Under the pieces are notes generated by a model. That model ran no database searches. It was given only the letters and a program-made list of their open reading frames with translations, and had not been told where the DNA came from. A DNA stretch of 64,000 nucleotides from Thermoplasmata archaeon (lineage in GTDB: Archaea > Thermoplasmatota > Thermoplasmata > Thermoplasmatales > Thermoplasmataceae), in the NCBI GenBank assembly GCA_021846395.1, contig JAJZXB010000007.1:1-64000 (forward strand). Direction: 5' to 3'. How positions within the stretch are numbered: the stretch's first letter is position 1; each line of letters opens with the position of its first letter. The position numbers and the translations under genes are program-made. This document shows positions 12,225 to 21,626 of the stretch, piece after piece.

Positions 12225-13749
12225 CCTTAACTCTTCATTTTTTACGCAATATGTTTAAGTCAATATTGAGTTTCTCCACAATTTCTCTTGCCTTCTTTGG
12301 TATTTCACTTAATATTTCACTGTTTCCTGTAGTGTATATTTTTATCCTTGACAGTATCAACAATATGTCCTTTACACTGTATTTTCCATCTATAGCATTC
12401 AATATTTGAAAATGGAGGTACAGTGAGATCAGATTTAAGAACATGTATGAGAACAGCATATTGTCGTCACGCAAATATGACCTGTCCGCTTCAAGGTCAT
12501 TCTTCAAAACATTGAATGCATATTCAACGTATTCCCTTTCCTTGTATAACCTGTATATCTTTTCAGGATCATCTACAATATCAGAATACAGATATATCTT
12601 CCCAAAATTTACAGAATCATTATGAAATGACTTTTTGCTCTTCCTATTTTCCTTTACCCTTATTAAATAATCCTTTTCCTCTTCCATTTTGAGTATTGGG
12701 TCTTCATATGTATATATGTTATTTTTATATTTCCAGTACTTTACAGGCTTGCCATTATACAGGAATATGTTTAAAAACTCATCATCCTTAATTATCATTT
12801 TTGAATTCCTCCTTACAGGTATTATATATGATAAATGGCTTTTTTTAAGCATCTTGATATTGTTGGTGGGATAGAATCCCTTGTCTGCAACAATAATGCA
12901 TTTTTCTATATCTGCCATTTCTATAGTTTTTGACATTGCAGTTACATCCCTTACAGAGCCGGGAATTACCCTGATGAATGTGGGGAGCTTCCTTGATGAT
13001 GAGAATAACAGCATTATATTGACCTGCGGAATGTGCATATTGTGCGTATTATGGCCAGGCTCCAGCATTGATATGTTTGCTGACCTGGAGAATATTGCTG
13101 TAGAATCCATTAAAAGATATTCCCCCTTCAATGTCATCTCCTTCATTGCACTGTTGCATTTGTCATAGGAAAGTGATGAAACCATGGAGGACAGCGACCT
13201 TCCATTCATACTCTCATTTAGCCTGGTTAAATAGGTTTTTTCATACAGGTATTTGACTGATTTCATTGGAAGGGGATTTATATTCCTTAAAATAACATAT
13301 ATGATTATTTTACTGTACATATAAGGAAAATACTTCTTCAATACAGGTATTACTGTGTTTTCTGCAATGCCATATAACAGTGCAATATTCCCATATTCAT
13401 AATCTCCACTTATTTTAGAAATATCATCCTTCTTTACAATGCCATTTTTTGTTACAACACCCAGGTATTCAGGTGGAAGGCTTTTTGGCTTCCTGTTGAT
13501 TTTATCATAAACACACCTTGGATGGTATGCATAATAATTATTCCCAAACTGCCTTATCTGGACACCTTTTGTTTTATACCTGAGAACCCATTCAGGATAT
13601 TTATTATTCATATAATGTATATATACAACATATGAATATAAATGTTTTCATTATGCCATATACTTTCAAAATACTTGAAATACTATGCTGGTAATAAAAT
13701 TAAAAAATAATATACCAGGACATATTATGTAAAAAATGGAGAGTTAAGG
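12225..13749 (-). mobile_element. Complete IS4-superfamily insertion sequence with inverted repeats and target duplication
   Basis: The ends are near-perfect inverted repeats: left CCTTAACTCTTCATTTTTTA and, read on the other strand, right CCTTAACTCTCCATTTTTTA (one mismatch in 20). The direct repeat TTTAAT flanks both ends (12219-12224 and 13750-13755) and fits a 6-base target duplication. One transposase gene fills the element. The insertion lies only 12 bases past the apgM stop codon, so it probably did no coding damage. A 13-base match to its left end (CCTTAACTCTTCA) recurs at 16727, next to another transposase fragment. Confidence 0.85.
12235..13611 (-). CDS. DDE transposase, IS4 superfamily (IS1634-like)
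   Basis: 458-residue transposase that fills the element. The catalytic triad is readable: the first Asp in LLMDSTAIFS, the second in IIVADKGFYPTNNIKMLKK, and the Glu in the YKEREYVEYAFNVLKNDLEA block typical of this superfamily (Y-x2-R-x2-VE). The frame is uninterrupted, so the enzyme may be active. The start at 13611 (MNNKYPEWVLRYKTKG) is preceded by an AT-rich stretch with TATA-like sequence inside the right end of the element. Confidence 0.88.
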   Translation of the reverse strand: MNNKYPEWVLRYKTKGVQIRQFGNNYYAYHPRCVYDKINRKPKSLPPEYLGVVTKNGIVKKDDISKISGDYEYGNIALLYGIAENTVIPVLKKYFPYMYSKIIIYVILRNINPLPMKSVKYLYEKTYLTRLNESMNGRSLSSMVSSLSYDKCNSAMKEMTLKGEYLLMDSTAIFSRSANISMLEPGHNTHNMHIPQVNIMLLFSSSRKLPTFIRVIPGSVRDVTAMSKTIEMADIEKCIIVADKGFYPTNNIKMLKKSHLSYIIPVRRNSKMIIKDDEFLNIFLYNGKPVKYWKYKNNIYTYEDPILKMEEEKDYLIRVKENRKSKKSFHNDSVNFGKIYLYSDIVDDPEKIYRLYKEREYVEYAFNVLKNDLEADRSYLRDDNMLFSYMFLNLISLYLHFQILNAIDGKYSVKDILLILSRIKIYTTGNSEILSEIPKKAREIVEKLNIDLNILRKK

Positions 13750-18294: not shown

Positions 18295-18873
18295 TTATCT
18301 CGTAATTGGTATACGTTTTATACTTAAAAGAATTCCGTTATCCGATTTTAAAATGGAATATTCCATGTCCTTTATTTCAACATTTTCAAACAGTGGTTTT
18401 CCGGACAATACGATTCCAGGGTTTATAAATATGTAAAATTCATTAAAAATGTTCTCATTAATAAACTGGTTTATAACATCTGCACCACCCTCAACAAGAA
18501 CACTATTAATTCCAATGCCCCTTATTTTATTCAATATGTTTTTCAGTGATGTATCATTCAGGGTTATTGTTTCTGCATTGTTTATTTTATTGTTTTTTAA
18601 GGAAAATATGTACGTTTTCACCGACCCATCAAAAACATGAAAATTTTCATTAAGCTTAAAATTGGCGTCAAGAATTATTCTTTTTTTTGCCTTTCTCAAT
18701 AGGGGATTATCTATCATTACTGTATTTGCACCTATAAGAACAGCATCCACCTTTTCCCTTAAATCCAATACCCTGCTAATATCCTCTTCTGTGGATATAT
18801 TGTATCTACCATGTGCTGACGAAATATTTCCGTTGATTGACATGGCAACGTTGATAATTATATAGGGAAACAT
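18295..18873 (-). CDS. 2,5-diamino-6-ribosylamino-pyrimidinone 5'-phosphate reductase (RibD C-terminal-like)
   Basis: NADPH-dependent reductase of archaeal riboflavin synthesis, corresponding to the C-terminal domain of bacterial RibD and to yeast Rib7. It has no deaminase domain. Key segments are IIINVAMSINGNIS, LREKVDAVLIGANTVMIDNP and SVLVEGGADVINQFI. I chose the ATG at 18873 (MFPYIIINVAMS); an alternative ATG lies 18 bases upstream. It is the first gene of a minus-strand unit with ahcY and is divergent from the amidohydrolase and rib genes. In the archaeal pathway reduction comes before deamination, so a separate deaminase is needed. Confidence 0.88.
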   Translation of the reverse strand: MFPYIIINVAMSINGNISSAHGRYNISTEEDISRVLDLREKVDAVLIGANTVMIDNPLLRKAKKRIILDANFKLNENFHVFDGSVKTYIFSLKNNKINNAETITLNDTSLKNILNKIRGIGINSVLVEGGADVINQFINENIFNEFYIFINPGIVLSGKPLFENVEIKDMEYSILKSDNGILLSIKRIPITR

Positions 18874-18938
18874 AATATGGCATACTTTCATACTATAACA
18901 ATATTGGGATACTACTAAAAAATAAGTGTTAAAAAATG

Positions 18939-18981: not shown

Positions 18982-19992
18982 ATGAAATTTACTGGCAATA
19001 TTTATATGGATGGCCAATTGAGAAAGGGCACAGTAAAGCTGGATAAGGGTGAATATGAATTTCATGAGGGGCTATCAAACGATGGGCTTTATGGCACACT
19101 GATTCCCATGCCAGTAAATGCGCATACACATATAGGAGATTCTTTCATAGGAGAAGAACCGGCCGGTACACTGCCAGAAATAGTCGGGCCAGGTGGCCTG
19201 AAACACAGAAAATTAAAGGAGGGCAGCAATTCCATAAAAATAAAGTATATGGGGCGGTCGAATAAATTTATGGAGGACAATGGAACATTATCATATTTTG
19301 ATTTTCGTGAGGAGGGCCTTCAGGGAATAAAAAACATTAAAAGCGCCCACAGAAAATTCATTTTGCCCGTAATATTTGGAAGATGCAATAATAATATAGA
19401 CAGCATTGAAGAGATATTGAAGGTCACAAACGGCATCGGAATAAGCTCAATATCAGATATTGATTATGACAATGCGCTTGATATAAGCTCTAAAACGCAT
19501 AGGAAGAATAAACTGATAGCCATGCATTTCAGTGAAAATAAAAGGGAAGATATAGACAGGGTGATAAATTTACATCCTGATATCCTCGTTCATGGCATTG
19601 TGGCAAAAGATGATGACCTTGAAACTGTACATAATTTCAAAATACCTGTTGTGATAACACCGCGGTCAAATATTTTCTATGGAAAAAGGCCAAATTATAA
19701 AAAATTTATCAATAAAAAAGTCGAACTGATGCTTGGCACAGATAATGTATTCGTGACAGAACCGGATATTTTTTCTGAAATGGACTTCCTTTACAGGTAT
19801 CAAAGGTTTATAGACTACATAAGCCCAGAATATATTTTAAAAATGGCAATAGACAATCCACGAAAATTCATGGAAAGAAATAATATAGAGATGCAGGAAA
19901 AATATATTTTTTTCAAGAACGAGTTGCTCAATGAATACCAGTTAATTACCAGGAAACATTATTTTACATCTGAAAATATTACTCATTATTAA
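18982..19992 (+). CDS. Amidohydrolase-superfamily protein in the riboflavin locus (candidate deaminase)
   Basis: 336-residue metal-dependent hydrolase. The readable metal-site motifs are MPVNAHTHIGDSF (HxH), then IAMHFSEN, DILVHGIVAKD and the terminal Asp in LMLGTDNVFVTEPD. This order resembles the adenosine/guanine/cytosine deaminase branch of the superfamily. The gene is sandwiched between the pyrimidine reductase (divergent) and ribB-ribC-ribH (same strand, 42 bases to ribB). In archaeal riboflavin synthesis the deaminase acting after the reductase is, to my knowledge, not assigned, so this is a good positional candidate. Alternatives are the formamide hydrolysis step (ArfB) or an unrelated base deaminase. 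Confidence 0.75.
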   Translation: MKFTGNIYMDGQLRKGTVKLDKGEYEFHEGLSNDGLYGTLIPMPVNAHTHIGDSFIGEEPAGTLPEIVGPGGLKHRKLKEGSNSIKIKYMGRSNKFMEDNGTLSYFDFREEGLQGIKNIKSAHRKFILPVIFGRCNNNIDSIEEILKVTNGIGISSISDIDYDNALDISSKTHRKNKLIAMHFSENKREDIDRVINLHPDILVHGIVAKDDDLETVHNFKIPVVITPRSNIFYGKRPNYKKFINKKVELMLGTDNVFVTEPDIFSEMDFLYRYQRFIDYISPEYILKMAIDNPRKFMERNNIEMQEKYIFFKNELLNEYQLITRKHYFTSENITHY

Positions 19993-20034: not shown

Positions 20035-21200
<1,166 letters not shown>

Positions 21201-21209
21201 GTGATAAAA

Positions 21210-21626
21210 ATGGAAAAAATAAAAATAGGAATAGTTGTGTCTGAATTTAATTATGATATAACGATGATGATGCTTCAGAGAGCGGAGGAATATTCGGAAT
21301 TCCTTGATGCGAATGTGTCCAGAGTTTTCAAGGTACCGGGCACCTTTGATATACCACTGGCAGTTAAAAAATTGCTGAAGATGGATGATATAGATGGTGT
21401 AGTTACCCTTGGGGCTGTGATAAAGGGTGAAACCGATCATCACAGGGTCATAATGGACAATGCTGCCAGAAAAATTACAGATCTATCTCTGGAGTATGAA
21501 AAGCCTGTGGCTCTTGGAATATCCGGATCTGGTGAATCAAGGCTTCAGGCCGAGGCCAGAATAGAAATGGCAAAGGATGCTGTTGAAAGCTGTATCAAAA
21601 TGGTAAAGCGTTTAAAATCCATATAA
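21210..21626 (+). CDS. ribH: 6,7-dimethyl-8-ribityllumazine synthase
   Basis: Condenses the ribitylamino-pyrimidine with the butanone phosphate from RibB. Conserved active-site blocks: GIVVSEFNYDITMMML, KVPGTFDIPLAVKKLL, VVTLGAVIKGETDHH (with the catalytic His) and ALGISGSGESRLQAEAR. I place the start at the ATG at 21210; the frame also opens at a GTG at 21201, but GGTGAT before the ATG looks like the ribosome binding site. It is the last gene of the rib cluster and precedes a tRNA gene. Confidence 0.95.
   Translation: MEKIKIGIVVSEFNYDITMMMLQRAEEYSEFLDANVSRVFKVPGTFDIPLAVKKLLKMDDIDGVVTLGAVIKGETDHHRVIMDNAARKITDLSLEYEKPVALGISGSGESRLQAEARIEMAKDAVESCIKMVKRLKSI

Follow-up and report, generated by a model that had tools for sequence, protein, structure and literature searches.

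A candidate riboflavin-pathway deaminase of the amidohydrolase fold in Thermoplasmatota

The 336-aa amidohydrolase encoded within the riboflavin locus of the window (the whole stretch of 64,000 nucleotides analysed here, from an acid-loving archaeon of the Thermoplasmataceae) is predicted to be a metal-dependent, amidohydrolase-fold deaminase of the riboflavin pathway acting after ArfC, a reading to which we attach a probability of roughly 0.86. It rests on catalytic motifs, the predicted fold, gene linkage, co-loss with the pathway and mutual exclusion with bacterial-type RibD, and from these we infer the substrate, the metal and the details of the reaction.

Organisation of the riboflavin locus

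The features of the locus, including the active-site codons (all in invariant alignment columns and with coordinates counted from the ORF start), are the following:

18295..18891, minus strand: pyrimidine reductase, ArfC-like, RibD_C only, 198 aa (PF01872, E=2e-29)
18894..18915, no strand assigned: conserved 22-bp box TATAACAATATTGGGATACTAC in the divergent reductase/amidohydrolase promoter
18982..19992, plus strand: candidate deaminase (amidohydrolase, PRK07213-like), 336 aa, ATG start
19123..19131, plus strand: codons of the H48-T-H50 metal motif
19525-19527, plus strand: H182 codon
19534-19536, plus strand: E185 codon
19591-19593, plus strand: H204 codon
19741-19743, plus strand: D254 codon
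20035..20712, plus strand: ribB (TIGR00506, over cut-off)
20694..21200, plus strand: ribC, archaeal riboflavin synthase (TIGR01506, over cut-off)
21201..21626, plus strand: ribH, lumazine synthase (TIGR00114, over cut-off)

The ORF, the six motif residues and the flanking genes all agreed with the original prediction of an amidohydrolase with deaminase motifs located between the reductase and ribB-ribC-ribH. Its claim that the reductase lacks the deaminase domain of RibD was also upheld, since Pfam and NCBIfam searches of the 18295-18891 product recovered RibD_C only and no cytidine-deaminase domain (PF00383 or the N-terminal TIGR00326). Comparison with Ferroplasma places the start of the reductase probably nearer to 18873 than to 18891. 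The 22-bp box was kept in every related locus that retains the reductase/amidohydrolase pair, no other good match to it was found among the loci examined, and it may be the site of a putative regulator. Elsewhere in the window, a 458-aa ORF (12235-13611, minus strand) resembles by eye an insertion-sequence transposase.

Family assignment, active site and predicted fold

The best NCBIfam family for the window protein was PRK07213 ("chlorohydrolase", NF005552), with 180 bits and E=6e-53 against 22 bits for the next family; this score falls short of the curated cut-off of 294 bits, and by its sequence we class the protein as PRK07213-like and not as a formal member of the family, which is longer at the C-terminus and whose name carries no riboflavin role. 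PRK07213 was also the best family for the methanogen (274-287 bits) and haloarchaeal (246-270 bits) relatives, which are likewise under the 294-bit cut-off. Pfam gave zero matches to the window protein, hence none to the creatininase-family PF02633 or to PF00383, and the cut-offs of PRK06380, PRK07228 and PRK06038 were not reached, with at most 22 bits each. A PRK07213-like homolog was also observed on plasmid pNRC200 of Halobacterium salinarum (L139:4992-6011), near gas-vesicle genes.

The active site was analysed in an alignment of 65 sequences, the members of which were 29-82% identical to the window protein. The HxH motif corresponds to H48 and H50, the histidine expected in the middle of the protein turned out to be two residues, H182 (with E185, in HFSE) and H204, and D254 (GTDN) is the Asp towards the end. 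None of these six residues varied among the 65 sequences, and therefore the motif is not due to chance. Together they make up the complete set of a COG0402-type amidohydrolase deaminase: the HxH, the beta-5 His with HxxE, the beta-6 His and the beta-8 Asp. The remaining invariant positions were N46, T49, D53, G72, K74, D107, R109, E110, G151, S155, P199, G252, N255 and E266. A PRK06380-type paralog of the same genome has the equivalents of H48, H50, H182, E185, H204 and D254 but is without D53, R109 and E110, from which it may be proposed that the six residues common to both amidohydrolases serve chemistry, and that D53, R109 and E110, a signature of the window protein's own, serve specificity.

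The AlphaFold model of the window protein (pLDDT 96, pTM 0.93) is an amidohydrolase barrel, and the nearest solved folds included TM0936 and aminofutalosine, guanine, MTA/SAH-type and isocytosine deaminases. The comparison with 1j6p gave E=6e-15 and a TM score of 0.74. The MTA/SAH deaminase TM0936 (1j6p, 1p1m) and the PRK06380-type enzymes have the fold and the six catalytic residues in common with the window protein, but identity to the solved folds is only 13-16%. Guanine and isocytosine deaminases (2i9u, 7ww2), fold neighbours of low sequence identity, take free-base substrates. They deaminate a 2-amino-4-oxo-pyrimidine unit, which isocytosine and guanine have in common with the riboflavin intermediate.

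Co-occurrence with the riboflavin pathway

RibD_C, RibB, ArfB, GTP cyclohydrolases II and III, cytidine-deaminase and amidohydrolase proteins were mapped in 101 Thermoplasmatales genomes, and presence and absence were tallied in the 48 that were at least 90% complete. The amidohydrolase was found in 39 of the 40 RibB-positive genomes and in none of the eight RibB-negative ones (0/8), the sole RibB-positive genome without it being a draft (G055). Among the 39 is G066, which was rejected as a counter-example because its gene, split by a frameshift, was recovered by profile search. Genera g6 and g9 showed losses of the amidohydrolase, as did parts of g15 and g17, in which RibB and the amidohydrolase are both retained by G044 (g15) and G034 (g17). 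Provided that the genera are natural groups, at least three of these losses are independent.

A PF00383 protein of about 170 aa was rejected as the pathway deaminase, since it occurs in 91 of the 101 relatives, including riboflavin-less ones, and so is not pathway-specific. Two further observations were made in these genomes. Many Thermoplasmatales genomes, including some without RibB (e.g. G032), encode a weaker RibD_C paralog in addition, about 190 aa long. GTP cyclohydrolase II (RibA) is kept without RibB or the RibD_C reductase in G007, G025, G039, G050, G058, G010 and G016 (for example at L133:1958-2542; the RibA of G025 is over the TIGR00505 cut-off), and in genomes lacking both RibB and the reductase it must serve something besides riboflavin.

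Mutual exclusion with bacterial-type RibD

The survey was extended to 141 Thermoplasmatota genomes of at least 93% completeness. The amidohydrolase was scored as present from 120 bits upwards, and also in G014, where the match is in two pieces in one frame. Fifteen of the 141 had a full-length RibD of the bacterial type (one f20 genome, with a bacterial-style ribD-ribE-ribBA run, nine f25 and five f29 genomes). The amidohydrolase was absent from all 15, as had been anticipated for genomes with a RibD of the cytidine-deaminase type, and present in 111 of the 116 genomes with RibB and without full RibD. The five exceptions were G103, G176 and G185, which have the reductase, G132, which yielded no reductase either, and the draft G129, which belongs to f29 and has relatives that carry RibD. 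Two of the ten RibB-negative genomes (G198 and G207) had the amidohydrolase, and both retain the reductase. The exclusion between RibD and the amidohydrolase gave a Fisher p = 8e-16, a value to be read with the relatedness of the genomes in mind; only some five or six events are independent, and those of RibD are few (f20, and f25/f29).

RibD provides the reductase and deaminase activities and no phosphatase, and ArfC is the reductase; therefore the second gene displaced by RibD is expected, by a narrow inference, to be the deaminase.

Gene neighbourhood in relatives

The layout of the window, with the reductase on the minus strand and the amidohydrolase and ribB-ribC-ribH on the plus strand, was also found in Acidiplasma and several related MAGs. 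The ribH-ribC-ribB-reductase genes stay together in Ferroplasma acidarmanus, with the amidohydrolase divergent from them, and another layout is seen in L047, where ribB-ribC-ribH and the amidohydrolase share one strand. Linkage was also found in methanogens, which belong to a different lineage: in Methanotrichaceae (L112) and Methanosarcinales (L114) the amidohydrolase is divergent from a reductase over the cut-off of the archaeal reductase family TIGR01508. Outside the Ferroplasma group, most homologs have no rib genes beside them, and about 40 of the 77 loci that were parsed have the amidohydrolase close to genes for a CBS-domain protein and a glycyl-tRNA synthetase (NCBIfam). The expected linkage of the family was thus borne out in part: it holds for rib or arfC genes in some lineages, in distinct arrangements, and is mostly missing elsewhere, where the homologs are usually unlinked to rib genes. 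Because co-occurrence is directly testable, these unlinked homologs are not decisive against the deaminase reading. As a separate observation, a conserved run outside the Ferroplasma group (e.g. L115:7908-12001) contains the candidate deaminase, a Usp protein, a four-CBS-domain protein and glycyl-tRNA synthetase.

Co-loss with the pathway, the exclusion with RibD and the linkage to arfC and rib genes in distinct arrangements strengthened the original prediction that the protein is the archaeal deaminase.

Proposed mechanism and alternative functions

In the mechanism that we propose, 2,5-diamino-6-ribosylamino-4(3H)-pyrimidinone 5'-phosphate is first reduced by ArfC to its ribityl counterpart, and the amidohydrolase would then exchange the 2-amino group for oxygen to yield 5-amino-6-ribitylaminouracil 5'-phosphate. 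Water would be activated by a divalent metal with H48, H50, H182 and D254 as its ligands, and E185 and H204 would aid proton transfer. The activity proposed is that of the RibD deaminase domain of bacteria and of Rib2 of yeast; the amidohydrolase would do the job of the RibD domain, but the latter has a cytidine-deaminase fold unrelated to the window protein and RibD has a distribution exclusive of it. An archaeal order in which reduction is followed by dephosphorylation and only then by deamination, with the dephosphorylated ribityl intermediate as the substrate, unlike bacteria and yeast, appears unlikely.

We consider it improbable that the window protein serves purine or methionine salvage as a deaminase of the adenosine/SAH/MTA type tied to ahcY. 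This gene does lie two genes upstream of the amidohydrolase in the window and in several relatives, and the nearest fold of the model is that of the MTA/SAH deaminases. However, the second amidohydrolase of the same genome (L002; 631 bits, over the PRK06380 cut-off) already covers an MTA/SAH-type role, and amidohydrolases of the PRK06380 type persist in genomes without the riboflavin pathway. Furthermore, ahcY is not adjacent to the amidohydrolase in Ferroplasma (L038), and the presence of the amidohydrolase follows RibB and RibD, not ahcY. Independently of this question, a PRK06380-like second amidohydrolase (MTA/SAH-deaminase type) was observed about 150 bp from ribA in G012, G016, G028 and G032 (L134:2337-4258) and 2-7 kb from ribA in several more genomes, riboflavin-less ones included.

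A role in another riboflavin step, the dephosphorylation, is more improbable still. The archaeal phosphatase is a gap in the pathway (PMC8305020) and a phosphatase would show the same co-loss, but the HxxE motif and the closest solved structures are those of aminohydrolases. Moreover, RibD comes without a phosphatase, so that its exclusion with the amidohydrolase fits a deaminase, unless a bacterial-type phosphatase arrived together with RibD.

Hardly tenable is the replacement of the formamide hydrolase ArfB, which the original prediction had offered as an alternative: no creatininase-type ArfB was found in the same genome and the amidohydrolase superfamily includes amide hydrolysis, but GTP cyclohydrolase III, whose product would be deformylated, was not found in the 101 relatives, ArfB and the amidohydrolase occur in the same genomes in families f4 and f5, and such a role would leave the exclusion with RibD unexplained. 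GTP cyclohydrolase II deformylates on its own, and it is present in the same genome (over the TIGR00505 cut-off); therefore a separate deformylase is unneeded, and this together with the co-occurrence in f4 and f5 contradicts the replacement. ArfB is an archaeal riboflavin hydrolase too, but of another family (PF02633) and for another step. We also observed that f4 and f5 have ArfB though searches for GTP cyclohydrolases II and III both came up empty there.

Discussion

The window protein would be the Thermoplasmatota candidate for a riboflavin-pathway deaminase of a kind that has already been predicted. PMC8305020 counts three remaining riboflavin gaps and credits the candidates for two of them to Rodionova et al. 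2017; in the table of PMC8305020, HVO_1235 stands as the candidate for ArfB, HVO_2483 and MJ0699 are marked as predictions, and the phosphatase is left as a gap. This leaves HVO_2483/MJ0699, by exclusion, as the published deaminase candidate. They would belong to the family of the window protein, and haloarchaeal plasmid homologs match the same PRK07213. M. jannaschii is among the control genomes matching PRK07213 and absent from those matching PF00383, a pattern consistent with MJ0699 as the deaminase. The literature searches found no experimental archaeal riboflavin deaminase, and a 2026 review (PMC13028884) leaves the archaeal deaminase unnamed in the passages found. The earlier view that this enzyme is unassigned therefore stands for experimental assignment, but it has to be amended with regard to computation, given the MJ0699/HVO_2483 prediction cited in PMC8305020. 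The deaminase idea is already known as a prediction, and what is new here is the distributional test, the linkage in a second lineage and the evidence against the ArfB alternative.

Archaeal riboflavin synthesis, as well as that of coenzyme F420 in methanogens, requires this deaminase step, and the distributional test lifts the published candidate to a strong candidate. If the reading is true, the name "chlorohydrolase" given to the best-matching NCBI family is misleading for annotation, and if the pNRC200 homolog is a riboflavin deaminase, a vitamin step sits on a large plasmid. The deaminase reading, if true, would also provide a clear example of one vitamin step carried out by two folds that are unrelated.
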